Positions 702 to 39,176 of a DNA stretch of 39,176 bases are shown piece after piece. How positions within the stretch are numbered: the stretch's first letter is position 1; every line of letters begins with the position of its first letter. The translations under genes were made by a program, and so were the position numbers. The notes below the pieces were generated by a model. That model had not been told where the DNA came from. It saw nothing but the letters and a program-made list of their open reading frames with translations, and ran no database searches. Source of the DNA: Bacteroidales bacterium. Lineage in GTDB: Bacteria > Bacteroidota > Bacteroidia > Bacteroidales > JAADGE01. The stretch is taken from the NCBI GenBank assembly GCA_029934515.1, contig JAOZMB010000011.1, positions 1 to 39,176 on the forward strand. The letters are read 5' to 3'.

Positions 702-2048
702 TCAATTTTTTTCAGAAATAATTTGTTTCAACTGTTCTGCTTGCGCCGACAACTCTTCTGCCGATTCCGACATCTGTTTTGCTGTTACCGAGTTTATATT
801 TGTGGTCTCTATTAGTTCTTGTATTGAATTGTTTATAATATTTGCGCCTCTATTACTTGTTATTGCTATATTTTTCATCAATTCTGAATTTTCTTTAATC
901 TCAGGCAAAATTCTTTCAAGTGCTTTTCTGGCAATTAGTGATATTGTTTTTCCTGTTTTCGATAATTTTACAATCTCTTTTGATGCTATTTTGCTTTTCT
1001 CTGCAAGATTTCTTATCTCATCGGCAACAACAGCAAATCCTATTCCGTACTCTTCAGCTTTTGCTGCTTCAATTGAGGCATTTAGCGATAGTAAATTTGT
1101 TTGAAATGCTATATCTGAAATTATAGATGTTTTTTTTGATATCTTATTTACAAGTTCAATACTTTTTAAGATTACTTTACTACTTTTTTGCAGTTTTTTT
1201 GAAGAATTTTCAGATTTAATACTTGTATTCTCAGCATGCTCCATATTTGTAAGAATATTGCTAAGCATTTCTTCCATTGATAAGGATATTTCTTCTGTTG
1301 ATGCCACTTGTTTGTTTGTATTTTGAGAAATTTGTTGAGAAATTGAACTTAATTGTTCACTTGCCTGCGAGAGTTGTTTGGCACTTATTCTGATACTGTT
1401 TATGAGTTCTATATTTTGGCGATTTTGTTCTTGTTGTGTTTCGGAATATTTTGTTATTCTTTGAATTGTTTTTGCAGAAAAAACTTTAAAATACCAGATA
1501 ATTAAAAATAATAAAGAACCAGCTATCGAGTAATTTATAATCGCTATTTTCAGTGTAGCAATTGTTTGACTGTCATAAATTGATTTACTGATAATAAAAA
1601 TTGTTATTGTTCCAACAAGAATAATAACTGCATTAATTATAAGATTTAATTTTGTTGAAAATAAAGATCCAAGTACAATAAGAACAAATAAATAATAGTA
1701 TCCTCCAGCATAAAAACTATGATAATCGCCACCAGAATACAACCGTATAAAAAGTGATATAAATTCAATTATTATCATACTTGTTATCATAAAATTACCA
1801 GCAAATTTCAATAAACCTTTTTTTATTAAAAAAAAAATAATTATAATAACAAGTTCAAAAAAAATTGGTAAAAGAATATGTGTTATAAAATCATTTTTAT
1901 AATATTGGTTTATAATTACAAAGACAATATAAAATGTTATAAATAAAAATGATGCAATATTTATATTGAAAAGTGCTTTTGCTTTTTTGTGGTCTGTTAG
2001 AGAGAAATCATCATAGACTTTCAATACAGATGTAAATATTTTTTTCAT
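702..2048 (-). CDS. Methyl-accepting chemotaxis protein with six-TM N-terminal sensor region
   Basis: 448-residue transducer. Residues about 27-186 hold six hydrophobic segments joined by short loops and no large periplasmic domain. The rest is a cytoplasmic coiled coil with the signalling hairpin tip [18 protein letters not shown] followed by [16 protein letters not shown], the conserved CheA/CheW-binding region of MCPs. I see no clear HAMP between the membrane part and the coiled coil. The frame extends eight codons further to a TTG at 2072. I prefer ATG 2048 ([10 protein letters not shown]) because it is the first standard start and lies about 50 nt from a good -7 element. With no extracellular domain it probably senses membrane, redox or intracellular cues. 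No che genes are in this window. The family call is firm; the stimulus is unknown. Confidence 0.93.
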
Positions 2049-2106
2049 ATTAATTTTTGTTTTTATTTTCAATAGAATTTTTATAAAGTTTTATCACAAT
2101 AGGATT

Positions 2107-5456: not shown

Positions 5457-5508
5457 CAATTGATAATGATAATAATAATTATCCATTTTTACTTATCATT
5501 TTCAATTG
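5457..5508. terminator. Bidirectional hairpin between convergent genes
   Basis: The arms CAATTGATAATGAT and ATCATTTTCAATTG pair over 14 bp with one mismatch around a loop of about 24 nt. The forward strand continues into TTTTTTATTT. The right arm overlaps the last codons of the reverse-strand regulator gene. The stem is AT-rich, so strength is uncertain. Confidence 0.4.
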
Positions 5509-6162
5509 TTTTTTATTTAATATTTCTATTTTTTTCCCTTCCAGATTAATTATTCCTTCTTTATTAAACTCAGTAAGAATACGACTAATACTTTCTCTTG
5601 TTGTATCAATATAATTTCCGAATTCATTTCTTGTAAGCGGTAATTTATATGAATCACTCTCATAAATTATTTCGCTAAAAAAAATTAAAGCGTCTGAAAC
5701 TCTACCTCGTATATTTTTTTGTGTTCTATTTATATATTTATGAAATAAATTTATTTCGTTCCTGCACAGTTCGACTATTATTTCATAAGCAAAATTACCA
5801 TTATTTTGCACAAATTCTTTGAACGTATCAATATCAATAAAACAGGCGTTCGACTTTGCTATAGCTGTTGCAGAGTAACGATTATATTTTTCGTCAAATG
5901 TTGTAGGAATACCAAGATATATTGGACCTTTTGCTATTTTAATTATCTGTTCCTTATAAAGACCCTCTATATAAAATTTTACAATACCTTTTTTGAGATA
6001 AACAATATTTGATGACAAAATGCCTTGTTTGAATATCATATCTCCTTTCTTCAATTCTATCTCTGCACAATTATTCTCCAAATTACCAAGTTCGTCTTCA
6101 TTTAAAAATTTTGCTGCTGCTGATTTGAATTGACAATTTTTACACGCTGGGCTGTTAAACAT
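5479..6162 (-). CDS. Crp/Fnr-family transcriptional regulator
   Basis: 227-residue regulator with an N-terminal cyclic-nucleotide-binding-type beta-barrel (about 20-120, with KKGDMIFKQG and YLKKGIVKFY) and a C-terminal winged helix (about 164-205, LTRNEFGNYIDTTRESISRIL). Cysteines occur at C7, C10, C32, C107 and C133. The CxxC near the N-terminus plus C32 and C107 recalls the four-Cys arrangement of oxygen-sensing FNR, though the spacing differs. The frame extends upstream to GTG 6246 with another ATG at 6195. I choose ATG 6162 because the protein then has the usual family length and the longer starts lie upstream of the likely -7 element. It is divergent from the octaheme cytochrome operon and probably regulates it. 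Confidence 0.9.
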   Translation of the reverse strand: MFNSPACKNCQFKSAAAKFLNEDELGNLENNCAEIELKKGDMIFKQGILSSNIVYLKKGIVKFYIEGLYKEQIIKIAKGPIYLGIPTTFDEKYNRYSATAIAKSNACFIDIDTFKEFVQNNGNFAYEIIVELCRNEINLFHKYINRTQKNIRGRVSDALIFFSEIIYESDSYKLPLTRNEFGNYIDTTRESISRILTEFNKEGIINLEGKKIEILNKKQLKMISKNG

Positions 6163-6173
6163 ATTTTTTTTTA

Positions 6174-6181
6174 CAAAAGTA
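6174..6181 (-). promoter_or_regulatory. Candidate -7 element for the Crp/Fnr gene
   Basis: On the reverse strand this reads TACTTTTG, matching TAnnTTTG within a longer ATACTTTTGTA that also occurs at the divergent operon promoter. The predicted transcript starts only a few bases before ATG 6162, which argues against the longer GTG/ATG starts and implies a near-leaderless mRNA. Confidence 0.4.
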
Positions 6182-6250
6182 TAAAAAATAAACATAAAAC
6201 ACTTTTTTATATAATTTTCTTTACAATATTTTGTGATATAAAACACAATT

Positions 6251-6351: not shown

Positions 6352-6609
6352 ATGGGAAATCAAAATGTTGTATTAAAAGGAGCTTTAATTTTTGGAGTAA
6401 TAGGGTTTGCTGTATTTGTGATACTTATTGTTTTTGGAATGGTAATGGCAGCTTTGGGATTTACATGTAATTGCTACAAAGTATTTGCATGGTCGCTGAT
6501 AGGTGTAGCTATCATTTCGGGATTGATTTTTTGGTTTGGATGCTGTTGCAGAAAACCAGATGGTGAAGAATGTAAAGGAATTAAAGGTTTTAAAAACAAA
6601 AGTAAATAA
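6352..6609 (+). CDS. Small Cys-rich two-TM membrane protein
   Basis: 85-residue protein I do not recognise. Two hydrophobic helices span about residues 9-36 and 45-63. Cysteines cluster at the membrane edges: C39 and C41 in the short loop, the triplet C64-C65-C66 just after the second helix, and C74 in the basic tail. Both termini probably face the same side. It is the first gene behind the operon promoter and ends 18 bp before the rhodanese lipoprotein. The Cys groups could bind metal, carry sulfane sulfur or take part in thiol exchange. None of this can be decided from sequence. Confidence 0.8.
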   Translation: MGNQNVVLKGALIFGVIGFAVFVILIVFGMVMAALGFTCNCYKVFAWSLIGVAIISGLIFWFGCCCRKPDGEECKGIKGFKNKSK

Positions 6610-6627: not shown

Positions 6628-7680
6628 ATGAAAAAATTTATTTGTTTACATACAGTATTATTTTTTTTGATATGTGTGGGAAGTTTTTCCTGTATGAATG
6701 ATAAAATTGCAAATGAAGATACTCTGAACATAAAAGAAAAAATAAGCAATTCACAAGTTTTGTTAGATGAATTTGTGAAGAACGGAGATTTTATAAATAG
6801 TAATAAAATTCCAACGTTGATTGATGCAAAGGAAGTAAATCAACTAATTGACAGTAACGTTCTTATCATAGATATAAGAGGAGCAAAATATTATGCCGAA
6901 GGACATATAAAAAATGCAATAAAATTGAAATATAATGAGCTTATTGATTTCTTTCAGGTGAGCGGAACACAGGATTATGACAAGGTTATTCTGGTGTGTT
7001 ACACTGGACAATCGGCGAGTTATGCTACTGCTGTTCTTCAATTTTTGGGATACAAAAATGTTTATGCAATGAATAGAGGAATGTGCGCGTGGAACAAAAA
7101 ATTTAGTAAAAAATGGTTGAAAAATTCTACGGATAGGTTAATAGATAAACTAGAAAAAAAATCGAACAATAAAAATAATATTACAAAATTACCTGATTTT
7201 GAAAGTCATAAAAAAGCTGGTGCCGAAATATTGAATATTAGAGCAAATAAATTATTGGACGAAGGTTTTAAAGAAGCTGCAATTACAATTGATGATATTA
7301 TTTCTGAACCAGGTGCTTTTTATATAGTAAGTTATCAGATGCCTGAAATATACGAACTCGGACATTTGAAAAGTGCTATTTTGTATAATCCTAATAAATC
7401 TTTGAAAAAAAATACAGAGTTATTAACAATGCCTGTGGATAAAACAATTGTTGTTTATTCAAATTCAGGACAGTATAGTGCTTATGTTACAGTATTTTTA
7501 CGAATGCTTGGCTACGATGCAAAAACTTTAAAATATGGAGCAAACGGATTTATGAACAAATTTATAATTGAAAATATTGATACAAAACAGGGTTTCAGTG
7601 AAGAGATTATAAATAATTTTAATTTTGAAACAAGCGAATACGAAGAAGAAGAAAGTGGTGTAGAAGAAGGAGGTTGTTGA
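6628..7680 (+). CDS. Lipoprotein with two rhodanese domains (second lacks the catalytic Cys)
   Basis: 350 residues. The N-terminal signal ends in GSFSC (C22), a good Bacteroidota lipobox, so the protein is exported and lipid-anchored. Rhodanese domain 1 (about 62-165) has the active loop C124-YTGQSAS and the usual DIRGAKYYAEGHIKNA segment. Domain 2 (about 195-312) keeps the fold, with ELGHLKSAIL and a YSNSGQYSAY loop, but Ser278 replaces the catalytic Cys, so it is probably regulatory or binds substrate without transfer. The protein ends in an acidic tail closing with GGC (C350). It sits between the small Cys-rich membrane protein and the octaheme cytochrome, which suggests handling of sulfane sulfur or a thiol intermediate near the cytochrome. 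Confidence 0.88.
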   Translation: MKKFICLHTVLFFLICVGSFSCMNDKIANEDTLNIKEKISNSQVLLDEFVKNGDFINSNKIPTLIDAKEVNQLIDSNVLIIDIRGAKYYAEGHIKNAIKLKYNELIDFFQVSGTQDYDKVILVCYTGQSASYATAVLQFLGYKNVYAMNRGMCAWNKKFSKKWLKNSTDRLIDKLEKKSNNKNNITKLPDFESHKKAGAEILNIRANKLLDEGFKEAAITIDDIISEPGAFYIVSYQMPEIYELGHLKSAILYNPNKSLKKNTELLTMPVDKTIVVYSNSGQYSAYVTVFLRMLGYDAKTLKYGANGFMNKFIIENIDTKQGFSEEIINNFNFETSEYEEEESGVEEGGC

Positions 7681-7724: not shown

Positions 7725-9353
7725 ATGCAGGAAAACAAAAATAGAGCTTACCAGATAAAAAAGATTATTATATATCCGGTAATAATTTTATTGCCTTGGT
7801 ATCTAATATTTCTTATAGGAAATTCAATCGAAGAGAGTCAAATTATAATTAAAGACAGTGTTATTGTTAATTATAAAATTGATACTTTGCCATCGGTTGT
7901 TGACCACAGTAAATTTGAGGTATTAAAACAGAAATTTGATAGTCCGAAACAAGTAACGGAGGCATGTGTGAGTTGTCATAACAAACGGCATAAAGAAGTT
8001 ATGGCATCGGCACACTGGACTTGGGACAGAGAATCAGTGAGACCGGGAGGAGATACAGTAAGATACGGAAAAACAAATGCAATAAATAATTTTTGTATCA
8101 CAGCAACATCAAATCGTTGGAAGTGTACAAGTTGTCATATTGGGTATGGTTGGAAAGATAAGGATTTTGATTTTTCGGATTATAAAAATGTTGATTGTTT
8201 GGTGTGCCACGACACAACAGGTGCTTATGAAAAACAACCGCTTGGTTCGGGGTTTCCGGTTGAAGAGAAACGTGCATTTACAGATAAAACTTATTTCCCA
8301 CCAAACTATAATTATATTGCAAAGAATGTAGGTAAACCGAAGATTGAAAATTGTGGAAAGTGTCATTTTTTTGGTGGCGGTGGCGATAATGTTAAACACG
8401 GTGATTTATCAAGCGACTTGTATCATGCCGACAAAGATATGGACGTTCACATGGACGAAGGCGGAACAAATATGTCTTGTGTTGATTGTCATCAAACGGA
8501 AAGACACAATATTACAGGTAAATTGTACTCCGTTTCGAATGACAATAATAATCGAATGACTTGTAAAAAATGTCACACAGGTGATGTTCATAAGAATAAT
8601 ACAATAAATAGACATACAAACAAAATTGCCTGTCAGACGTGCCATATTCCTGTTTATGCAAAAGGAACTGCAACAAAAATGATTTGGGATTGGTCGACAA
8701 GTGGTAAAGTTGATAAGAACGGTAAACAATTTAAGGAATACGATAGTTTGCATAATGTAACTTATAAATCTGGAAAAGGAACTTTTGAATGGGCAACAAA
8801 CGTAGAGCCTGAGTATGTATGGTTTAACGGAACGGCAGACCAATATGTTCCCGGCGATATTATTAAAGATACCTCTGCTGTGTTAAAAATTAATACATTA
8901 TTTGGTTCGTATGGCGACCATGAATCAAAAATTATTCCAGTAAAAATTCATCGCGGTAAACAAATTTTTGATACACAAAATAAAATGCTTATCATACCGC
9001 ATATTTACGGACACGACAGTACCGCATATTCAAAAGGTATGGACTGGAACCTCGCCGCCAAAGCAGGAATGAAAGATGCTGGATTGCCTTACAGTGGAGA
9101 ATATTCTTTTATCAGCACTGAAATGTACTGGCCTTTGAACCACATGACAGCACCTGTGGAGCAGTCTTTGAAATGTATTGATTGTCATTCAAAAGAAAGT
9201 AAATTAAAAAATTTGACAGGTTTTTACATGCCAGGCAGAGACAGTAATGTTTTTATGGAAATACTCGGAATTCTTATGATAGTGGGAACGTTCGGCGGTA
9301 TAATAGTACACAGCGTTATTAGAATTTTAAAAGCAAAACATATTATAAATTAG
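7725..9353 (+). CDS. otr: Octaheme cytochrome c, tetrathionate reductase (Otr) family
   Basis: 542 residues with exactly eight CxxCH heme sites: C81, C134, C158, C210, C252, C280, C303 and C484 (first Cys of each). An N-terminal hydrophobic helix (about 13-32) and a C-terminal one (about 511-535) suggest membrane anchoring with the heme domain outside. Family landmarks are NNFCITA before heme 2, SCHIGYGW, and MIWDWSTSGK after heme 7. Shewanella Otr reduces tetrathionate, nitrite and hydroxylamine in vitro and has a Lys-ligated active-site heme; I cannot pick the matching Lys here. The physiological substrate of this family is unsettled. The next gene encodes a b-type cytochrome that could supply electrons from quinol. 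The gene starts 44 bp after the rhodanese gene. Confidence 0.9.
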   Translation: MQENKNRAYQIKKIIIYPVIILLPWYLIFLIGNSIEESQIIIKDSVIVNYKIDTLPSVVDHSKFEVLKQKFDSPKQVTEACVSCHNKRHKEVMASAHWTWDRESVRPGGDTVRYGKTNAINNFCITATSNRWKCTSCHIGYGWKDKDFDFSDYKNVDCLVCHDTTGAYEKQPLGSGFPVEEKRAFTDKTYFPPNYNYIAKNVGKPKIENCGKCHFFGGGGDNVKHGDLSSDLYHADKDMDVHMDEGGTNMSCVDCHQTERHNITGKLYSVSNDNNNRMTCKKCHTGDVHKNNTINRHTNKIACQTCHIPVYAKGTATKMIWDWSTSGKVDKNGKQFKEYDSLHNVTYKSGKGTFEWATNVEPEYVWFNGTADQYVPGDIIKDTSAVLKINTLFGSYGDHESKIIPVKIHRGKQIFDTQNKMLIIPHIYGHDSTAYSKGMDWNLAAKAGMKDAGLPYSGEYSFISTEMYWPLNHMTAPVEQSLKCIDCHSKESKLKNLTGFYMPGRDSNVFMEILGILMIVGTFGGIIVHSVIRILKAKHIIN

Positions 9354-9386: not shown

Positions 9387-10766
9387 ATGATTAAATTACA
9401 AAAAATAGATAAAATAATAAGACCTGAAAATAACCAGACAAAGCGAGCTTATATTTATAAAGGTTTTGAAAGATTTTGGCACTGGTCGCAGGCATTGTTG
9501 ATAATATTTCTTGTTATAACGGGTTTTGAGGTACATGGTTCTTATGAGTTATTGGGTTATCAAAGAGCTGTTTTATATCACGATATTGCGGCATGGGCTT
9601 TATTGGTATTGATTATTTTTGCTGTATTTTGGCATTTTGCAACAGGCGCATGGAAACAATATGTACCAACAATGAAACTTGTAAAAGCACAGATTAATTA
9701 TTATATACTCGGCATATTCAAAGGCGCAGCACACCCGACAAAAAAAACATCATATAATAAATTCAATCCATTGCAAAGACTTACATATCTTGGCTTTAAA
9801 GTTTTTATTATACCGTTGCAAGTAATTTCAGGTTTTTTGTATATGTATTATATGTATCCCGAAAATCCTATCCATATAGAACGTCTTGACATCATAGCAA
9901 TAATACATACGTTTGGTTCATTTTTGCTGATTGTCTTTTTACTTGCACATTTGTATCTGCTCACAACAAGCGAATCGCCGAAAGAGAGTTTTGTGGCAAT
10001 GTTGCACGGCTGGGAAGAAGTTACAGTAGACCCAGAAGAAGAACACAGAGAACATTTACAATATGCTGTGGATAAAAGTATTGCCGGATATTACAGATTG
10101 GATTTAGATGGTTTGTTTATCAGTGTTAATGATGCTTGGATGGAGTTATACAAATGTAAGGAAAGAAATAATATTATTGGAATGCATTGTTCGATTACAC
10201 GTAACGATAAAAATGCAAAAAGATTAAACGGAATGGTTAGTTCTGTTTTAAAAGGAAAATCTTTACGTGGAGTTTATGTTGATAGAAAATGTTTTGATGG
10301 AACAATAGGAAAGCATATTCTTTCGATGAATCCTACTTTTGAAGACGATATTATTGTTGGTGTTGAAGGTTTTATTATTGATGTTACTGATATTCATCGA
10401 CTTCAAGAACAGATGTATCATTCGGTAAGGAACAGTGAAGCTGGTTATTATAGATTGAATAGTAAAGGTTATTACGAAGAGATTAACGATGCTTGGCTAA
10501 AAATGTATAAATGTGTTGATAAAGATAATATTATAGGAAAACATTATTCGTTAAGCAGAACTATAAAAGATTTAAAACAGGCAAATGAAATTTTTGAAAA
10601 AATTATGAAAGGTGAAACAATTTCGAGTATGATTGTAACACGAAAATGTAAAGATAACACAACAGCACAGCATATTTTATCTGCAAATCCTGTTTATGAA
10701 AATAATAAAGTCATAGGAGCAGAAGGTTTTATTATTGATATTTCTGGTTTGGAAAAGGATATTTAA
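9387..10766 (+). CDS. Cytochrome b561-like membrane subunit fused to two PAS domains
   Basis: 459 residues. The first 200 or so form a membrane cytochrome b of the thiosulfate-reductase/hydrogenase b-subunit kind, with His in or next to TM helices at H32 (RFWHW), H65, H83 (FWHFATG), H174 (IIHTFG) and H188 (LLAHLYL). A short acidic linker (about 210-225) leads to two tandem PAS-like domains (about 226-335 and 345-455). These align with each other at a 119-residue offset: AGYYRL, NDAWMELYKC versus NDAWLKMYKC, HILSMNP versus HILSANP, EGFIID in both. No kinase, cyclase or other output domain follows. It probably donates electrons to the octaheme cytochrome while the PAS pair senses a ligand or redox state. 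The fusion is unusual. Confidence 0.85.
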   Translation: MIKLQKIDKIIRPENNQTKRAYIYKGFERFWHWSQALLIIFLVITGFEVHGSYELLGYQRAVLYHDIAAWALLVLIIFAVFWHFATGAWKQYVPTMKLVKAQINYYILGIFKGAAHPTKKTSYNKFNPLQRLTYLGFKVFIIPLQVISGFLYMYYMYPENPIHIERLDIIAIIHTFGSFLLIVFLLAHLYLLTTSESPKESFVAMLHGWEEVTVDPEEEHREHLQYAVDKSIAGYYRLDLDGLFISVNDAWMELYKCKERNNIIGMHCSITRNDKNAKRLNGMVSSVLKGKSLRGVYVDRKCFDGTIGKHILSMNPTFEDDIIVGVEGFIIDVTDIHRLQEQMYHSVRNSEAGYYRLNSKGYYEEINDAWLKMYKCVDKDNIIGKHYSLSRTIKDLKQANEIFEKIMKGETISSMIVTRKCKDNTTAQHILSANPVYENNKVIGAEGFIIDISGLEKDI

Positions 10767-10806: not shown

Positions 10807-10992
10807 ATGGCACATAAAAGAACACACGAAATGGGAAGAGGCGGAGTTTGTACATGTCCGAAATGCGAAACAAAAATTCCGCATAAACGAGGTGTACCAT
10901 GTATAAAAACAATTTGTCCTGAATGTGGCGCAAAAATGTTGAGAGTAGATTCCGAACATCATAAAAGTTTCTTAAATAAAAAGAAAAAGTGA
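10807..10992 (+). CDS. Small zinc-ribbon/rubredoxin-like protein
   Basis: 61 residues with six Cys: C15, C17, C20, C32, C37 and C40, reading CTCPKC then CIKTICPEC. The CPxCG-like knuckles predict a small zinc-ribbon or iron-binding fold. The N-terminus MAHKRTHEMGRGG and the segment KIPHKRGVPC match short proteins often found beside NifX/NifB-type cofactor-binding proteins in anaerobes (recognised from memory). It lies 40 bp after the cytochrome b-PAS gene and probably shares its transcript. Too short to assign a function. Confidence 0.8.
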   Translation: MAHKRTHEMGRGGVCTCPKCETKIPHKRGVPCIKTICPECGAKMLRVDSEHHKSFLNKKKK

Positions 10993-11396: not shown

Positions 11397-11777
11397 ATGA
11401 AAATAGCAATTCCGTCAAACGACAGGAAAACAATATTAGGACATTTTGGACGCACAAAAGGATTTATGATTTATGATATTGAAGGAGATAAAATTATAAG
11501 TAAAGAATATCGTTCAAATAATTTCACTGGACATGCAAAAGGACATCACGAACATAGCAACGAGCATCATCATGCTCACAGTCATGCTGGAATATTTAAG
11601 GCTCTTTATGATTGTAAAACAGTTATTGCTGGTGGAATGGGTCGCAGACTTTACAATGATTTTGAAACCCAAAATATCAAAATATTTGTAACCAAAGAAA
11701 AAGATATTAATACAGCAGTAGGTCTTTTTATAAATGATGTTTTGGATAATAGCTCTGATAAATGTTGTTCGCATTAA
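11397..11777 (+). CDS. NifX/NifB-type iron-molybdenum cofactor-binding domain protein with His-rich insert
   Basis: 126 residues of the dinitrogenase iron-molybdenum cofactor-binding superfamily: MKIAIPSNDRKTILGHFGRTKGFMIYDIEG at the start (read in parts: IPSNDRKT, HFGRTKGF) and VIAGGMGRRLYNDFETQNI later. Residues about 46-66 form a loop with nine His (HAKGHHEHSNEHHHAHSHAG), which would bind metal ions. The C-terminus SSDKCCSH adds Cys and His. There are no nif genes in the window, and stand-alone members occur widely in anaerobes with unclear roles. It is downstream of the octaheme block but separated by about 400 bp of repeats. A terminator follows it. Confidence 0.85.
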   Translation: MKIAIPSNDRKTILGHFGRTKGFMIYDIEGDKIISKEYRSNNFTGHAKGHHEHSNEHHHAHSHAGIFKALYDCKTVIAGGMGRRLYNDFETQNIKIFVTKEKDINTAVGLFINDVLDNSSDKCCSH

Positions 11778-21019: not shown

Positions 21020-24000
21020 TTATCTTATTAGTGTTACATTTCCCACTTTTTCAAAAATTTGTCCATTTCTATATACACCTATAATTTTCCAAACATAAAC
21101 ATCTTGCATACAAAGTTTTCCATTATAATATCCGTCCCATCCTTCTTCGATATTTTTTGATTGGAATATTTTTTCTCCCCATCGATTAAAAATAGTAAAA
21201 TCATATTCTGAAATAGATTCATAAATACTTGGTTTAAATATATCATTTTTTCCGTCTCCGTTAGGCATAAAAGCATCAGGGATTCTTATATATCCTTCAC
21301 TTGATACAAAGACTTCGTTTTCAAAAGTGAACGAATTAGTACATTTTTTGTCAGATGTTACATACAAAGTAATATCCTTCCAGCCGGGTGATTTATAATA
21401 ATGTATAGGTTCTGTTTCGCTTGATGTGTTTCCGTCACCGAAATCCCAAAAGTATATAAAGTTATCAGTTATCAAATAATTGTAGCAATGAATTGGTTGT
21501 CTTGGAGCCATAACAGAATCTGGTTCTACATTAAAATCAATCATTGGCGATTCCCAAACATTAATTGTTGTATCCAGAACAGATGACGTACCGCAATATC
21601 CTAAGGCAGACAACATTATATCATATGTTTCAGGTTCTGAATATGTGTGTGTTGGATTTGTTTCGTTTGTATATGTTCCGTCTCCGAGACTCCAAGAATA
21701 AGAATTTGCATTTACAGATTTGTTAGAAAGGTTAAGAACAAACGGTGTACATCCGTTTGTAGTGTCTATTTCGAATATAGCTTCAGGCTGGTTTGTTGTT
21801 ATATTCATATCAAATATAGACGTTCCCGAGCACCACTTATTTGAAGCGTCTATTGATATTTTAAATACTCCGCAAGTATCATAATTATGTGAAATAGGCT
21901 GTTCTTCTGTTGAATTTGTTCCGTCATCAAAATCCCAAAAATAATTCGTATATATGTCTGGACTTATGTTTTCAATATTTACTGTTGTCTCTGGATAATA
22001 CAATGTATCCGGTGTATAAACAATATCAAATGTAGGACGCGGATAAACTGTTATTGTGTGATATGAAGTATCGTTACACATAGAAGTTGAAACAGTACAC
22101 AGATTAATTGTATAATTTATGGAGTCAAGCGTATTATTTTCAAATATATGAACAATAGTATCATTCAAAACGGTGTCTATTGGTGTTGAATCATCAAAAT
22201 CCCAAATAGCCATAACTACTTCCGAAAAACGATAAAGCTCTACACTAAGCGGACTACATCCGCTGTTTATATCAGTATTAAAACCAGCAGATGATTCTGG
22301 TGATAATATTTTATACGTATCATTACTAATTGTTGTACAGCCATTTTCGTCTTTAATAATTGGAATATATTCACCTGTCATTAGATTTTCAAATGTATTT
22401 GACTCTTGGAACTCGCCATCGTTAAGTGCGTACTGTATAGGTAAAGTTCCGCCGGTAGTGCTTATTTCTATTATTCCGTCGTTACTACCAATACATGTTT
22501 CATAATAAGTATTTACAATATAAAAATATAGAAGGTCTGGCTCATTTATATAAATTGTTCCATAGTTTGATACAACACAATCGTTTGCATCTATTATTGT
22601 AACTTCATAATCTCCTTGCGATAATCCATTAAAAAAACTGTTTGTTTGATATGTTTCTCCTCCGTTAACAGAGTATTCTAAAAATTCTGTTCCTCCATCT
22701 GCTGTTATTGTAATTGTTCCATCATCATAACCGTAACAGCTTATATTTGTTATTTCAATTTCAGTTATTTCTATTTCAGGAGGTTGAGTAAGCGTAATTG
22801 TAGTGTTGTAATTTGTTTCACAGTTATTCTGGTCAATAACAATTATATTATAATCACCAGCTGTGAGTTCAGTAAATTCATTTTCATTAAAGAACAGGTT
22901 ACCATAGTTTACCGAGTACATATATTCAGGCACTCCACCTTCGACACTTATTGTAATTATTCCAGTGTTATCTCCGTAGCAGAGTTCAATATCAGCGAAC
23001 TGAACATCTGTTATCATCAAAGAATCAGGTTCTGTAATTTCAGCCTCTTCGCTGTATCGCACACAGCCGTACTCATCTATCACTGAGAATTGATATATTC
23101 CTGCCGCAAGTCCGTAAAAAAAAGGATTGTATGTATAATCTCCTCCGTTTATTGAATACTGATAAAACGGCTCTCCACCCAATGTTGTAAGTGCAATATA
23201 TCCGTCTATTTCATTATAGCATGAGATATCCACTATGCTACTTATATCGACACTCAACTCGTCTGGCTCGTTTACTTCTATTGTTATTTCGTTTGTTGTA
23301 CAATTGTTATAATCCTGTACATTAATTATGTATATTCCAGCTGAGAGGTCTGAAAATGTACCTGTTGTATTATAATCTGAAAAAGAACCGCTACTAATTG
23401 TATATGTTATTGGTTCTGTTCCACCTGTTGTGTTTACTATAATTTCGCCAATTTCTTCTCCATTACACCCCAAAATATCAGTAACATATTGGTTTGAGAT
23501 AAGTAATAGTTCTGGTTGAGAAATAACTATAGGCTCTTCGCTACTTGCATTACAATCGTTTTCATCTTCTAAAACAATATGATAATTTCCTCCAGCCAAT
23601 CCAGTAAAAGTACTGTTTTCCGAAAAAACAATTCCACCGTCAATTGCATACCAAATTTGTCCAGTACCACCTGAACCAGTAATTGTTATAGAACCGTTTG
23701 ATTCACCAAAACAAGATGAAACATCCTCAACATATATATCATCAATAATCAATTCTGGTGGGTCTATTAGTTCATAACTTCCACCTTCGACAATACAATT
23801 ATTGCCGTCTTTAATCATTATAGAATAATCACTTCCAGCAGACAATCCTATAATGACGCTGTAACCATTGTAATCAATACCTCCGTTAATTGAATATTGT
23901 AAATCACCTGTTCCGCCAGTTGCCGATATTGCGATTTGTCCGTTGGATGCTCCATAACAGGTCGGATTTTGAACAACAATATTAGAAATTTCTATTTCAT

Positions 24001-25597
24001 TTGGTTGTTCTACTATAATTTCTTCTTCCCAAAATACTTCACATTCATTTGCATCTTTTACCTTTGCGATATATGTTCCAGCATACAATCCTGTAATAAC
24101 ATTATCCTGAAAATAATCAATCCCGTTTACAGTATATTCCAATGTACCTGTACCTCCGTAAGCAAAAGTTGTAATCGTTCCAGTGTTATCATTAAAACAT
24201 GTATTTACATCTAATACATGCGTCTGATAGATAATAATTTGAATTGGTTGATTTATCAAATGCGAACTACCTAACAGAGTACATTCATTAGCATCTTTTA
24301 CCTGAACTGAATATGTTCCTGTTGGCAATCCTGTAAATGTGCTTGTACTAAGCATTGTTCCGTGAAATGTATCACCCTGGTCTATCGAATACCAATATCC
24401 TGGTGTTCCGCCGCTGACACTTATTTCAATAGTACCTGTTGAGTCTCCAAAACAACCTTCAATATTTGTATTGGTATCATAATTTAGTACAAATTCAGGT
24501 GGTTCGTTTATTGTTACAGTACCGCCAGATATAGTACACAAATGGTCATCTCTGACAACAACTTCGTAAACTCCAGCATAAAGATTTTCAAAAACATTAT
24601 CATGTACGAAAGGCGAACCACCCTCTACTCTATAATTTAGAAAAATACCTGTTCCGCCTGATGCAATAACTGTTATCGAACCCGTTGGCATATTAAAACA
24701 GGAATCTGCATCTGTATTTGTTATTGATTCAATAATTATTTCTTCTGGCTGTCCGATTGTTATTGTTTCGCCTACAACAGTACAACCAGCACCATCTGTT
24801 ACAACAACTGGATATTCACCAGCTGTAAGTTCACTGAAATAATTGTATAATTCATAGTTCTCACCGTTGTCAATTGAATATTTCAAAGGCAAAGTACCTC
24901 CTGATGCAATAATAGCAATTGTGCCACCAGCATCGCCGTAACACATTATTACATCGGAACTTACAACACTATTTATGCCAACACTTGTTGGTTCGTTTAT
25001 AGTTATCTGTTCGTAACCACTGACGCTGCATTCGTGCAAATCTTTAACTTTTATTTGATAAACACCAGAGGCAAGTCCAGTAAAATATCCTCCGTTATCA
25101 AAAAAATTAACTCCGTTATTTATTGAATAATAAAGTTCTCCTGTTCCACCTGTTGCAGTTATTGTTATTGTTCCTGTCTCATCACCTGGACAACCTGTTA
25201 TGTTTGTGAACTCTTGCAGGTGAATAAATAATTCGTCTGGTTGAGTAATTGTTCCCCAGCCCATGGCTATTGTACCAATTGCATCTTTTACCAAAATACC
25301 GTCATAAGTATCAGCAGTTAAGTTTTCAAAAAAATTATCTGTTTGATAATTTGCTCCGTTATCTATAGAATATTCATAAGGTTCACTACCTCCAGAAGCC
25401 ATTATTGTAATGGTTCCATTATTATCTCCATAACATGTTGTAACATTGGTTACTATTACATTATCAACATCTAATGAAAAAGGTTTATTTGCAATTACTT
25501 TATCAGTTTTATTAAAAGCATATTGTGGAAATACATTTAAACCAGTAAAAATATGTAATGTTGCAAATAGTATGATGATTAATTGTTTTTTTTTCAT
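21020..25597 (-). CDS. T9SS-exported surface protein with 13 SprB-like repeats, four PKD domains and CHU_C sorting domain
   Basis: 1525 residues. An N-terminal signal peptide (about 1-25) is followed by 13 repeats of about 80 residues (about 40-1080). Each has the SprB pattern: C(Y/F)G(D/E)xxGxIxIxxxGGT, YSI(D/N)xG, FxxLxAGxYxVxVKDxxxC, ending in INEPxxL or similar. Then come four PKD-like domains (about 1080-1440) with IWDFDDSTP, YFWDFDDGTNS, YSWSLGDGTYTN and YFWDFGDGNTSS. The last 85 or so residues are the gliding-motility-associated C-terminal domain (type-B T9SS signal): PDAFMPNGDGKND, FNRWGEKIFQS, GWDGYYNGK and DVYVWKI. It should be secreted through the outer membrane and surface-attached, as an adhesin or gliding-type protein. 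SprB moves F. johnsoniae over surfaces, but motility here is not shown. Confidence 0.93.
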   Translation of the reverse strand: MKKKQLIIILFATLHIFTGLNVFPQYAFNKTDKVIANKPFSLDVDNVIVTNVTTCYGDNNGTITIMASGGSEPYEYSIDNGANYQTDNFFENLTADTYDGILVKDAIGTIAMGWGTITQPDELFIHLQEFTNITGCPGDETGTITITATGGTGELYYSINNGVNFFDNGGYFTGLASGVYQIKVKDLHECSVSGYEQITINEPTSVGINSVVSSDVIMCYGDAGGTIAIIASGGTLPLKYSIDNGENYELYNYFSELTAGEYPVVVTDGAGCTVVGETITIGQPEEIIIESITNTDADSCFNMPTGSITVIASGGTGIFLNYRVEGGSPFVHDNVFENLYAGVYEVVVRDDHLCTISGGTVTINEPPEFVLNYDTNTNIEGCFGDSTGTIEISVSGGTPGYWYSIDQGDTFHGTMLSTSTFTGLPTGTYSVQVKDANECTLLGSSHLINQPIQIIIYQTHVLDVNTCFNDNTGTITTFAYGGTGTLEYTVNGIDYFQDNVITGLYAGTYIAKVKDANECEVFWEEEIIVEQPNEIEISNIVVQNPTCYGASNGQIAISATGGTGDLQYSINGGIDYNGYSVIIGLSAGSDYSIMIKDGNNCIVEGGSYELIDPPELIIDDIYVEDVSSCFGESNGSITITGSGGTGQIWYAIDGGIVFSENSTFTGLAGGNYHIVLEDENDCNASSEEPIVISQPELLLISNQYVTDILGCNGEEIGEIIVNTTGGTEPITYTISSGSFSDYNTTGTFSDLSAGIYIINVQDYNNCTTNEITIEVNEPDELSVDISSIVDISCYNEIDGYIALTTLGGEPFYQYSINGGDYTYNPFFYGLAAGIYQFSVIDEYGCVRYSEEAEITEPDSLMITDVQFADIELCYGDNTGIITISVEGGVPEYMYSVNYGNLFFNENEFTELTAGDYNIIVIDQNNCETNYNTTITLTQPPEIEITEIEITNISCYGYDDGTITITADGGTEFLEYSVNGGETYQTNSFFNGLSQGDYEVTIIDANDCVVSNYGTIYINEPDLLYFYIVNTYYETCIGSNDGIIEISTTGGTLPIQYALNDGEFQESNTFENLMTGEYIPIIKDENGCTTISNDTYKILSPESSAGFNTDINSGCSPLSVELYRFSEVVMAIWDFDDSTPIDTVLNDTIVHIFENNTLDSINYTINLCTVSTSMCNDTSYHTITVYPRPTFDIVYTPDTLYYPETTVNIENISPDIYTNYFWDFDDGTNSTEEQPISHNYDTCGVFKISIDASNKWCSGTSIFDMNITTNQPEAIFEIDTTNGCTPFVLNLSNKSVNANSYSWSLGDGTYTNETNPTHTYSEPETYDIMLSALGYCGTSSVLDTTINVWESPMIDFNVEPDSVMAPRQPIHCYNYLITDNFIYFWDFGDGNTSSETEPIHYYKSPGWKDITLYVTSDKKCTNSFTFENEVFVSSEGYIRIPDAFMPNGDGKNDIFKPSIYESISEYDFTIFNRWGEKIFQSKNIEEGWDGYYNGKLCMQDVYVWKIIGVYRNGQIFEKVGNVTLIR

Positions 25598-35200: not shown

Positions 35201-38200
35201 GTTGCCAAGCAACAGATAATGTTTCAATAACTGTAAATCCTTTGCCATATCCTCACACACTGATGGGCGGTGGCGGATATTGTGACGGTGTCGATGGAGT
35301 TGAGATATTTTTTAATCCATCGGAGTCTGGAGTCAGCTATCAGCTAATATATAATGGCACAGATTACGGAGACCCAATTGAAGGAGATGCATTAAGCGGT
35401 AGAATATCCTTTGGAACAGAACTTTATCCAGCAGGTATTTACACTGTAAGAGCTTCCAGCAACAGTACGCCATGCACAAGGGATATATCAAATTCAGTGG
35501 AAGTTGAAGTTTATCCTTTGCCAGATGTTGATGCTGGACCAGATACAATAATTTGTGAAAACCCAGATGTGCTTGAACAAATTTTCGCACAAACATTAGG
35601 AGGGAGTTTCTCGGGTTCAGATTATATCGATGGTAACATTGATAACTGGACTTTTAACCCAGCTGTTACAGGAACTTATGAATTAACATATACTTATATA
35701 GAGCCTGTTCATCTTTGTGAAAATACCGATGTTAAAATCGTACAGGTTATTACATTAGAACCAGTTACTGTACCTGAAACATATGAGGTCTGTGTAGAAG
35801 GTGATTCTATAATTTTACCAATGGGAATTCCGACAACAGGCATATGGAGTGTTGAGGATGGTATTTTTTATCCTCCTTCTATTGCTGGAGATTATACATT
35901 AAGATATTTTACTGGTATTCAAGGCACAAGTTGTTATAATTACGATGAAATGATTGTAACAGTACACCCGAAGCCACATCCTCATATACTGAGGGGCGGT
36001 GGCGGATATTGTGACGGTGTCGATGGAGTTGAGATATTTTTTAATACATCGGAGTCTGGAGTCAGCTATCAGCTAATACATAACGACATAAACTACGGAG
36101 ACCCAATTGAAGGAGATGCATCAGACGGTAGAATATCCTTTGGAACAGAACTTTATCCAGCAGGTATTTACACTGTAAGAGCTTCCAGCAACAGTACGCC
36201 ATGCACAAGGGATATATCAAATTCAGTGGAAGTTGAAGTTTATCCTTTGCCAGATGTTGATGCTGGACCAGATACAATAATTTGTGAAAACCCAGATGTG
36301 CTTGAACAAATTTTCGCACAAACATTAGGAGGGAGTTTCTCGGGTTCAGATTATATCGATGGTAACATTGATAACTGGACTTTTAACCCAGCTGTTACAG
36401 GAACTTATGAATTAACATATACTTATATAGAGCCTGTTCATCTTTGTGAAAATACCGATGTTAAAATCGTACAGGTTATTACATTAGAACCAGTTACTGT
36501 ACCTGAAACATATGAGGTCTGTGTAGAAGGTGATTCTATAATTTTACCAATGGGAATTCCGACAACAGGCATATGGAGTGTTGAGGATGGTATTTTTTAT
36601 CCTCCTTCTATTGCTGGAGATTATACATTAAGATATTTTACTGGTATTCAAGGCACAAGTTGTTATAATTACGATGAAATGATTGTAACAGTACACCCGA
36701 AGCCAGATGTTTACGGTGGTGATACGGAATATGTTTGTGCAAACATAGACCCTTTTTATCTGAGCGGACATACGCCTGCGGGAGGAACTTTTACTGATAA
36801 TGAGAATAATACAATTTCTTTGGACAGTCTTTTTAACCCAGCTTCTGCCGAAATTGGTAATAATTTTCTTACATATACATATACAGATGGAAACGGTTGT
36901 ACAAATTTTGCAACTAAAATAGTACATGTTTATCCTATTCCTATTATAGAGACAGAAGATACAACATTGTGTAATCAACCAATAGGAATACAATTAACAG
37001 TTACAGTAACTACAGATAATCCTGGAAATGGTATTTTTAACATGGAGGATTATGATTATGTTACTGAGGACGGAATATTTACACCTTCTGGGCTTCCTGG
37101 CGGAACTGGAATATACGATGTTATTTACACTTATACAGACGGAAACGAATGTATTCATTCCGAAGTATTAAAAGTTACTGTTGAAGATGCAAAAATCTTA
37201 ACAATTCCAGAAGACTTTTCTTTATGCCTTAACGCCCCAGATACAACTTTGCAGGCAACTCCTGAGGGCGGTTATTGGACAGGTGATATTGTGACCCAAG
37301 CAGGAACGGTAACAACGAATCCAGCAGGAACATTTTCACTTATTTATATTTATGCTGCTGGAACTTCTTGTGAATTAAGAGACACAGTAGAAGTTACAAT
37401 ACACGGACTGCCGGTTGTAAATGCTGGAGACGATATTGAAATATGTTATGGCGACCAGAATTTTATACAAGACCCACCAGCTCAACCAGCCAACGGAATT
37501 TGGACAGGTCTCGGAATTATTGATGAAGTAACAGGATTATTTAATACTGTTTATTCAGGTACTCCTTATATTCTAACAGTTGATACTATTACATATTCTT
37601 ATACAGACAGTAACAGTTGCACTAATTCGGATACAAAAATTATTACAATAAATCCTTTGCCTGAAATTATTTTGAACAAAGATACTTTGAATTTGTGTCT
37701 TAATCCAGAAGGTTCATATCAACTTGATTCGCTTCTTGATTCGGAAGAAGGTGGAATTTGGACTTATGAAAATGAAACATTAATTCAAAACGGTATTTTC
37801 ATTCCGGATACGGAAGGAGATTTTAATGTAATTTATACTTATACAAATACAATTACAGGATGTGAAAACAGCGAGACAATAGTAATAACTGTTACAGATT
37901 ATGATGATTTAACAATGCCAGCTGATATTGAAATTTGTCATTGTGATGAGCTTGCAACTTTATTTACAAATATTTCAGGTGGAACTTGGGAATGTATAAA
38001 TTTTCCAGATTTAATCGATACTCTCGGAAATGTAAATACTTGTTATACTCCATCTTCTACACCGTATATTCTAACTTATACAGTTGGCGAAGGTACTTGT
38101 GAACAAATAGGAAATATGTCAATTAAAATTTATGCACTTCCTTTTGTTGAGGCATATCCGCAAACTATTTGTGAAGACGTACCAGAACTTACTTTGACAG

Positions 38201-39176
38201 CAAATCAATTTCCAGGTAGTTGGGATATTATTTTAGGTTCAGGAACTATTAACGACAATATTTTTTATACAGAAGTAGCTGGAAATACAGACGTAGAATT
38301 TACTTATACTGACCCAAACACAACATGTGTAAACAAGGATACAACAACTATTACAGTTAATCCTTTGCCTACAATAATTTTGAATAGAGATACTTTGCCT
38401 TTGTGTCTTAATCCCGATGGTTCATATCAACTTGATTCGCTTCTTGATTCGGAAGAAGGTGGAATTTGGACTTATGAAAATGAAACATTAATTCAAAACG
38501 GTATTTTCATTCCGGATACGGAAGGAGATTTTAATGTAATTTATACTTATACAAATACAATTACAGGATGTGAAAACAGAGATACAACAGTAATAACTGT
38601 TACAGATTATGAAGATTTAATAATGCCTAATGATACTTCTGTATGTTTGAATAGTTCGATTTTTTTATTAGAAATAAATATACCTGGTGGAACATGGACA
38701 TGTACAAACGAACCAGATGCAATTGATGAAACAGGAAATTTTGATCCAACAGGTTTATTAGCTGGAGAATATTATTTAAACTATACAGTTGGCGAAGGTA
38801 CTTGTATGCAAACAGGAAATATGACTGTTACTATTCTTCCGCTTCCAGAGGTTACAGCACATCCGCAAACTATTTGTGAAGACGTGCCAGAGATTATTTT
38901 GACAGCAGACCAATTTCCAGGTATTTGGGTAATTATTTCAGGTACAGGAACTATTAACGATAATATTTTTTATACAAATGGAGACGGAATTATAGAAGTA
39001 GAATTTACTTATACTGACAATAACGGCTGTATTAATTCAGATACAACAACTATTACAGTTAATCCTTTGCCTGAAATTATTTTGAACAAAGATACTTTGC
39101 CTTTGTGTTTTAATCCATCTAGTTCATATCAACTTGATTCGCTTCTTGATTCGGAAGAAGGTGGAATTTGGACTTA
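32242..39176 (+). CDS. Giant surface protein: DUF7948-like region, seven SBBP propeller blades, Ig-like domain and repeated modules (3' end outside window)
   Basis: Open from ATG 32242 to the window end: at least 2311 residues. A signal peptide (about 1-25, ending ISGFSQ) leads into a domain with FWENKGQYSDQ and YPNIDIVFY (about 30-230), typical of the region preceding SBBP repeats. Seven SBBP-type blades follow (about 285-746), each with (S/T)YYGG-like starts, a VDxDxxIFVVGxTNS core and GxxDGxIAKF ends, enough for a complete seven-bladed propeller. An Ig-like domain (about 752-835, with YQWYKDDEELV and GVYTCIV) comes next. The rest is many modules of about 80-120 residues with GGxW, YTYTDxNGC and ITVNPLP. 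Two sets are large tandem duplications. Export by T9SS is expected; the sorting domain lies off the edge. Confidence 0.9.
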   Translation, partial: MNKFIFFRLFIIYMVFILFTISGFSQRADVKMPNQQAGFWENKGQYSDQDGNKRTDLLYVYHGEGYKLQLNKNRFSYDLYQRVTDTLGVSEATGEMEIEQKYIFHRVDVELLGANKNAMIIQEGKSKSFKNFYLEHTGKKGATGVHNYKKITYKNIYPNIDIVFYLKNKQLKYDFVVREGGNVADIKLKVNGADDYEADSDFLKLETSLGTLFNEFENTDIKAELSNGIIQFKTLKVLNNKTKKISASVKLNSQHKKILSKKLPAPKNSKDSLPANFTFYQDRAIGTYYGDSIEDRIYGVDVDSDRNIFVVGTTNSDENIATDYVFQGIYNGNTDGIIAKTDTDMQTLIWSTYYGGNEFDLLFDISINMYNYIAVVGYTNSSNMAHNGFQSSFGGSNDGIFAKFNSNGERICSSYLGGSSNDEITGVTADDDDFYIIGRTTSENNISTTGSYQPEYGGARDIFLAKIKQTGTNIVKDWCTYIGDNNPNWSGSISSYRNYSGAIITKGDYVYIAGGTGGAISDDFPGYKNNDDIVLAKFDKSGNFQTGKCFGANLDDEATCIGIDSNNNIWVGGYTNSKEDYGNITTDNAHQREHGAGENNDGFIMKFSQSGDEIVKEYGSYLGGEIDDYIYSLAIDDYDYVVFVGESTSEDNISISGSYQTELADGGGGGELDAIFAKFNPAGICIWSTYYGLAPVDYGNDIVVDNQGYIIGVGATRTVSQMTTPDVFKPNYIASDEGYIVRFCDLIITTEAHSQTVWTGNTATISVTAIGSYPELFTYQWYKDDEELVDNDTITGSSDRILIINPVVSTHEGVYTCIVTNNCGEVSSEATLTVKEIEINPAEICLNESATITASPGGTMYEWSVETTPNNWSEIQSGVGLDEITVTPDVAGTYNYRLIVYGFNEPYDSAYVSLIVNPLPVATATAEPIIICDTEELTLSGSATGGTPDYNFFWSSNPVGFTSEEQNTTDTPDGNTVYNLLVIDEKGCQATDNVSITVNPLPYPHTLMGGGGYCDGVDGVEIFFNPSESGVSYQLIYNGTDYGDPIEGDALSGRISFGTELYPAGIYTVRASSNSTPCTRDISNSVEVEVYPLPDVDAGPDTIICENPDVLEQIFAQTLGGSFSGSDYIDGNIDNWTFNPAVTGTYELTYTYIEPVHLCENTDVKIVQVITLEPVTVPETYEVCVEGDSIILPMGIPTTGIWSVEDGIFYPPSIAGDYTLRYFTGIQGTSCYNYDEMIVTVHPKPHPHILRGGGGYCDGVDGVEIFFNTSESGVSYQLIHNDINYGDPIEGDASDGRISFGTELYPAGIYTVRASSNSTPCTRDISNSVEVEVYPLPDVDAGPDTIICENPDVLEQIFAQTLGGSFSGSDYIDGNIDNWTFNPAVTGTYELTYTYIEPVHLCENTDVKIVQVITLEPVTVPETYEVCVEGDSIILPMGIPTTGIWSVEDGIFYPPSIAGDYTLRYFTGIQGTSCYNYDEMIVTVHPKPDVYGGDTEYVCANIDPFYLSGHTPAGGTFTDNENNTISLDSLFNPASAEIGNNFLTYTYTDGNGCTNFATKIVHVYPIPIIETEDTTLCNQPIGIQLTVTVTTDNPGNGIFNMEDYDYVTEDGIFTPSGLPGGTGIYDVIYTYTDGNECIHSEVLKVTVEDAKILTIPEDFSLCLNAPDTTLQATPEGGYWTGDIVTQAGTVTTNPAGTFSLIYIYAAGTSCELRDTVEVTIHGLPVVNAGDDIEICYGDQNFIQDPPAQPANGIWTGLGIIDEVTGLFNTVYSGTPYILTVDTITYSYTDSNSCTNSDTKIITINPLPEIILNKDTLNLCLNPEGSYQLDSLLDSEEGGIWTYENETLIQNGIFIPDTEGDFNVIYTYTNTITGCENSETIVITVTDYDDLTMPADIEICHCDELATLFTNISGGTWECINFPDLIDTLGNVNTCYTPSSTPYILTYTVGEGTCEQIGNMSIKIYALPFVEAYPQTICEDVPELTLTANQFPGSWDIILGSGTINDNIFYTEVAGNTDVEFTYTDPNTTCVNKDTTTITVNPLPTIILNRDTLPLCLNPDGSYQLDSLLDSEEGGIWTYENETLIQNGIFIPDTEGDFNVIYTYTNTITGCENRDTTVITVTDYEDLIMPNDTSVCLNSSIFLLEINIPGGTWTCTNEPDAIDETGNFDPTGLLAGEYYLNYTVGEGTCMQTGNMTVTILPLPEVTAHPQTICEDVPEIILTADQFPGIWVIISGTGTINDNIFYTNGDGIIEVEFTYTDNNGCINSDTTTITVNPLPEIILNKDTLPLCFNPSSSYQLDSLLDSEEGGIWT
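35248..36705 (+). repeat. Two tandem 729-bp units inside the surface protein gene
   Basis: Unit 1 is about 35248-35976 and unit 2 about 35977-36705, offset exactly 729 bp (243 codons). About 580 bp, from 35398 to 35976, are identical to the second unit by eye. Differences cluster in the first 150 bp (for example ATATATAATGGCACAGATTA versus ATACATAACGACATAAACTA). The frame is kept, so the protein gains a duplicated 243-residue module. Confidence 0.85.
37651..39176 (+). repeat. Tandem units of about 705 bp inside the surface protein gene
   Basis: Units start at 37651, 38359 (offset 708) and 39061 (offset 702; third unit cut by the edge), each beginning AATCCTTTGCCT. A core of about 155 bp (37713-37869 versus 38421-38577) is identical by eye; the remainder is diverged. 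All offsets are multiples of three. Confidence 0.8.

Follow-up and report, generated by a model that had tools for sequence, protein, structure and literature searches.

What does a pair of PAS domains do on a membrane cytochrome when no output domain follows it? PAS domains are usually read as the input to kinases, cyclases and receptors, whereas in the gene considered here they are carried by a respiratory cytochrome b. The gene lies on a Bacteroidales contig of 39,176 nucleotides, referred to below as the window. Its ORF is real and complete (positions 9387-10766, + strand; 459 aa), leading from cytochrome b through PAS1 and PAS2 directly to the stop. Our reading of the locus as a whole is that it encodes the quinol-facing cytochrome b of an octaheme cytochrome complex, with the PAS pair, as a clade-specific cytosolic module, modulating electron flow in cis; we give this reading an even chance. 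The features of the region are as follows:

5479-6246, - strand: divergent CRP/FNR-family regulator (PF00027, PF13545; PRK11161 Fnr at 66.8 bits, below cut-off)
6352-6609, + strand: small Cys-rich protein with two TM helices, just upstream of the rhodanese gene (from sequence; Pfam match only below cut-off)
6628-7680, + strand: secreted double-rhodanese lipoprotein with a GGC end, 44 nt before OTR (PF00581 in two stretches; lipobox GSFSC)
7725-9353, + strand: OTR, an octaheme tetrathionate-reductase-family cytochrome c (TIGR04315, 1SP3 match, motif count, tail)
9387-10766, + strand: cytochrome b-PAS-PAS protein (ORF call, Pfam and NCBIfam profiles, AF2; 28 distinct homologues of full architecture)
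9456-10010, + strand: cytochrome b domain with four TM helices, residues 24-208 (PF01292; FdnI structural match; alignment with E. coli FdnI)
10041-10412, + strand: PAS1, residues 219-342 (TIGR00229; AF2; conserved Trp251, Arg272, Arg300 and His310)
10413-10751, + strand: PAS2, residues 343-455, an old duplicate of PAS1 (PF13426, structural matches)
10807-10989, + strand: 61-aa zinc-ribbon-like protein with a double CxxC, directly downstream (from sequence; Zn-ribbon match below cut-off)
11397-11777, + strand: small NifX/NifB-type (Nitro_FeMo-Co) protein (PF02579), found near cytochrome b in several PAS loci

Architecture and predicted fold of the protein

The first-pass annotation had described a b-type membrane haem protein running into tandem PAS domains without an output domain, and both the profile searches and the structural model bear this out. 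The N-terminal part matches Pfam PF01292 (Ni_hydr_CYTB) over residues 24-208 (E = 2.7e-22; 79.8 bits, cut-off 30.1), and the NCBIfam equivalogs for thiosulfate reductase, formate dehydrogenase and hydrogenase cytochrome b score below their cut-offs (114.3/204, 43.3/115.85 and 41.1/121.5 bits, respectively). PAS1 is recognized by the sensory_box profile TIGR00229 of NCBIfam over residues 219-342 (E = 1.9e-11; 44.2 bits, cut-off 22.9) and PAS2 by Pfam PAS_9, PF13426, over residues 358-453 (E = 2.6e-07; 31.3 bits, cut-off 27). PAS2 ends near residue 455 of the 459, and no further domain follows.

AlphaFold2 (AF2), run on an alignment of 34 rows, gave a model with a mean pLDDT of 78, about 80-91 in the PAS cores, and a pTM of 0.41, at which the predicted domain folds are credible and the relative placement of the domains is not. 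In this model residues 16-233 match FdnI of formate dehydrogenase-N (1kqf_C) with a Z of 14.6 (3.4 Å over 196 residues). His32, His65, His174 and His188 align with H18, H57, H155 and H169 of FdnI, which we take to be haem ligands, and are kept in all 98 rows of the family alignment; on the basis of this alignment they are the putative haem ligands of the protein. Three of these (His32, His174 and His188) were already in the ligand set proposed earlier, but its fourth member, His83, corresponds to Arg74 in FdnI and is absent from 8 of the 98 rows, its place being taken by His65. His50 and His116 are invariant in the family as well. Several cytochrome b-PAS copies have Leu or Asp at the position of His83 (L051, L055, L063, L069 and L029), and in L051 and L055 the replaced copy stands in tandem with one that retains this histidine. 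The loop charges place both the N- and the C-terminus of the cytochrome b in the cytosol.

Both C-terminal units are predicted by AF2 as PAS folds with good confidence, as the earlier description had anticipated, and in Foldseek and VIA-align comparisons both match solved PAS domains, with a match to PpsR for the tandem; PAS2 reaches a VIA Z of 17.7 against 3lyx and 16.6 against the FAD-binding PAS domain of NifL (2gj3). The two units are internal duplicates at an offset of 119 residues, as first noted, with GYY at 234 and 353 and 48 of 112 residues identical (43%), far above chance. PAS1 of the window scores higher against PAS1 of other species than against PAS2, and the duplication is therefore old.

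When the two PAS copies of the two-PAS proteins are taken together, A233, G234, Y235, Y236, N248, W251, G290, R300, D304, S313, P316, G325, G328 and F329 are conserved at 100%, His310 at 98% and Arg272 at 94%. All 48 aligned proteins have His310 in their first PAS, and the near-invariant positions correspond between PAS1 and PAS2 (His310/429, Arg300/419, Trp251/370). In close pairs, omega is 0.055-0.11 for the PAS part and 0.03-0.07 for the cytochrome b, so that both parts are under purifying selection. The PAS subtype is rare outside this cytochrome b family. Its nearest relatives, and the strong hits found elsewhere, are single PAS domains, one in the histidine kinase L125 (119 bits) and one in the histidine kinase L141 (108 bits); one of the two lies behind an apparent PocR-type N-terminal domain. 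This kinship makes the subtype look sensory. A search for phage relatives of the cytochrome b-linked PAS found none.

The octaheme cytochrome gene upstream

What the cytochrome b is for is indicated by a gene that the first-pass annotation missed: an OTR gene ends 33 nt upstream. Its product scores 588.6 bits against TIGR04315 (cut-off 375) and 430 bits against 1SP3, contains 8 CxxCH motifs, and has Lys224 at position 153 of the 1SP3 chain, presumably the active-site Lys. The match to this soluble chain stops short of the C-terminal tail, which in the window protein forms a TM helix bearing His529. It is the sole OTR in the source genome assembly.

The linkage holds across the family. OTR lies immediately upstream in 101 of the 102 cytochrome b genes with room for it, the remaining one being 1.7 kb away, and all 103 OTR frames examined end in a hydrophobic membrane helix that contains a His. 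Six of these frames have only 7 CxxCH motifs (for example L010, L011, L015 and L021). Taken together, the order of the genes, the fold shared with FdnI, the haem histidines and the OTR tail helix argue that the cytochrome b is very probably the membrane subunit of OTR.

Along the window these genes run from the small TM protein through the rhodanese lipoprotein and OTR to cytochrome b-PAS-PAS and the zinc ribbon, with the CRP/FNR gene divergent. In PAS-less loci, OTR and cytochrome b are usually accompanied by a Sulf_transp gene of the YeeE/YedE type, and a rhodanese is often present. Any assignment of the OTR substrate is uncertain. Sulfur chemistry is suggested by the neighbouring rhodanese and YeeE/YedE genes; the name OTR comes from Shewanella, whose enzyme has been reported to act on nitrite and hydroxylamine as well, in work cited in PMC7887784.

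Elsewhere in the window, a protein encoded at 702-2072 (- strand) carries an MCP signalling domain (PF00015), its N-terminal half being otherwise without a Pfam match, a 1525-aa protein (21020-25597, - strand) combines SprB repeats and PKD domains with a type IX secretion signal (CHU_C), and long direct repeats with a period of about 700 nt, 78-93% identical, occupy 35228-39176 and reach the end of the contig.

PAS copy number across the family

A scan of genome contigs and related genomes yielded 103 usable distinct homologues, whose PAS units were counted by HMM: 28 have two, 21 have one and 54 have none. The fusion is thus kept by dozens of homologues in other genomes, 49 distinct proteins carrying PAS, mostly from Bacteroidota MAGs and otherwise from genomes labelled Calditrichota, Chlorobiota and Spirochaetota. 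In none of the 103 is a kinase, cyclase or MCP domain found at the C-terminus. Those with PAS end no more than a few tens of residues after the last PAS unit, and the sole extra domain is the rhodanese of a cytochrome b-PAS-rhodanese fusion (L057:6013-7635), which has a GGC end as in the rhodanese lipoprotein of the window.

The 54 PAS-less homologues, many with more than 50% identity over the cytochrome b, show that PAS is not required for catalysis. The possibility had been raised at the outset that close homologues end shortly after the cytochrome b, with the PAS part encoded as a separate gene. These PAS-less proteins do end near residue 215, but no separate PAS ORF of the same subtype was found beside a PAS-less cytochrome b in the fetched flanks, so PAS has been gained or lost as a domain and not split off. 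On a quick tree, PAS presence changes at least four times, and a one-clade model is not rejected (p-AU 0.11), a single origin of PAS thus being possible. YeeE/YedE is present in 46 of 47 PAS-less loci, 6 of 11 one-PAS loci and none of 6 two-PAS loci; this anti-association with PAS is striking, but it spans too few independent evolutionary pairs to be used as evidence.

Literature searches on octaheme/PAS, cytochrome b561-PAS fusion and octaheme/rhodanese/YeeE themes returned no account of a cytochrome b-PAS protein and no description of a membrane-bound OTR complex. The combination of cytochrome b with PAS is genuine, conserved and, it appears, undescribed. We regard it as a variant of the PF01292 cytochrome b with PAS added, not as a categorically new system.

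Possible modes of action of the PAS pair

We infer that the cytochrome b would take electrons from menaquinol and relay them by way of two b haems to the membrane-anchored OTR, which would reduce a periplasmic acceptor, either a sulfur oxyanion or, as for the Shewanella enzyme, nitrite or hydroxylamine. The PAS pair, of a sensory subtype also known in histidine kinases, would sit on the cytosolic C-terminus; since no output domain accompanies it, its likeliest effector is the cytochrome b/OTR complex itself. Binding of a ligand or a change of state in the PAS pair may then act through the short linker after TM4 to raise or lower electron flow. Gating of electron flow and recruitment of a partner protein had both been suggested earlier, and both are plausible. 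The absence of a recurrent output gene (no recurrent kinase or response-regulator cluster was found among the neighbouring ORFs of the family loci) and the sensory kinship of the PAS subtype point to action in cis, for which we see an almost evenly balanced case. Counting against such modulation are the 54 homologues that do without PAS and the residue comparisons described below, which assigned no ligand; dimerisation or partner binding would moreover leave the same sequence pattern as gating. The more specific proposal that a cytosolic ligand gates flow to a periplasmic terminal reductase through the PAS domains of the cytochrome b itself, with no kinase or transcription step, is possible rather than probable.

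Alternatively, the cytochrome b could read the quinone pool or the electron flux through OTR, with the PAS pair reporting to a separate soluble protein, as NifL does to NifA or Aer to HAMP. Candidate partners would be a kinase, a CRP/FNR-type regulator or MinD-like Fe-S ATPases. The PAS pair does match NifL-NifA, MmoS, PpsR and other PAS structures from protein-protein signalling, and 10 of 79 loci have CRP/FNR genes in the vicinity. Several two-PAS loci (L036, L041-L045), which resemble ORP-type clusters, are close to genes for MinD-like Fe-S ATPases, NifX-like proteins and DUF5320 proteins. However, most PAS loci share no single recurring partner candidate, and CRP genes flank PAS-less loci too. 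We therefore regard signalling in trans as doubtful.

Less likely again is that the pair serves as a dimerisation or assembly module that binds no ligand. PAS domains often dimerise, and the copy number in this family is free to be 0, 1 or 2, both of which would suit such a role. Against it, the polar residues Arg272, Arg300, His310 and Asn315 are near-invariant, recurring in each of the two PAS copies and in part also in the histidine kinases, a degree of polar conservation that seems beyond the needs of a bare scaffold.

The PAS domains might also belong to the redox path itself, with a flavin, a haem or a thiol pair taking part in electron transfer or in Cys-based redox sensing. The best folds include the FAD-binding PAS of NifL and the haem-binding PAS of DosP, but resemblance of fold does not demonstrate a cofactor. 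Flavin contacts in Aer are made by His53, Arg57, Asn85 and Arg115 (PMC9668731); in a low-identity alignment testing for Aer/MmoS-type flavin binding, only the equivalent of Arg57 (Arg272) is conserved and those of the other three are not. In a similarly low-identity alignment, the axial His in the F-alpha helix of DosP, in our understanding the haem ligand, corresponds to Leu280, which is Leu in 85%. These residue tests are mostly negative for flavin or DosP-type haem, although a different binding mode is possible. The NCRFLQ-type motif with the photoactive Cys of LOV domains is absent, and most homologues have Tyr or Phe in place of Cys268 of PAS1. As to the cysteines of YKC and RKC, suggested earlier to be redox-active, those of YKC are poorly conserved in the two-PAS set (Cys257 in 19/27, Cys376 in 9/27); the hairpin Cys of RKC is commoner without being invariant (Cys302 in 20/27, Cys421 in 24/27; 44 of 54 PAS copies). 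This variation rules out a redox-Cys pair as a family-wide mechanism, and we consider any direct redox role of the PAS domains very improbable. That the joining of cytochrome b and PAS is an assembly or local fusion artefact, as might be suspected of a 39-kb contig in a fragmented assembly of 201 contigs, is practically ruled out by the occurrence of the same fusion, with unbroken open frames, in 28 distinct full-length homologues from many independent MAGs and families.

Modulation in cis would mean that PAS domains joined to an electron carrier, not to a signalling enzyme, tune a respiratory branch at the protein itself, and the family, with its 0, 1 or 2 PAS domains, is a natural variant set for testing direct PAS regulation of an electron-transfer enzyme. 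The locus also points to a putative membrane-bound OTR complex, made of octaheme cytochrome and cytochrome b and often accompanied by rhodanese and YeeE/YedE, that extends across uncultured Bacteroidota and into neighbouring phyla.

Compared with known systems, the window OTR resembles that of Shewanella oneidensis (1SP3, TIGR04315) in its profile score, its 8 CxxCH motifs and its lysine, and differs in that its C-terminus forms a His-containing membrane helix and that a cytochrome b is encoded next to it. The cytochrome b shares with those of FdnI, HyaC and thiosulfate reductase (PF01292) the four TM helices, the four haem-ligand His and the cytosolic C-terminus; unlike them, it carries PAS and falls below the named-equivalog cut-offs, and gene order suggests as its partner an octaheme cytochrome c in place of an FeS or hydrogenase subunit. 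With the redox sensors Aer, NifL and MmoS it has the PAS fold in common, NifL PAS being among the best structural matches, and sensing close to respiration would be analogous; however, the flavin contacts His53, Asn85 and Arg115 of Aer are not conserved in it, and it has no HAMP, kinase or MCP output. Finally, the histidine kinases L125 and L141 contain the same PAS subtype, with common N, R, C, D, H, S, P and EGF positions, but there the PAS domain feeds a transmitter, whereas in the window protein it comes after a cytochrome b.
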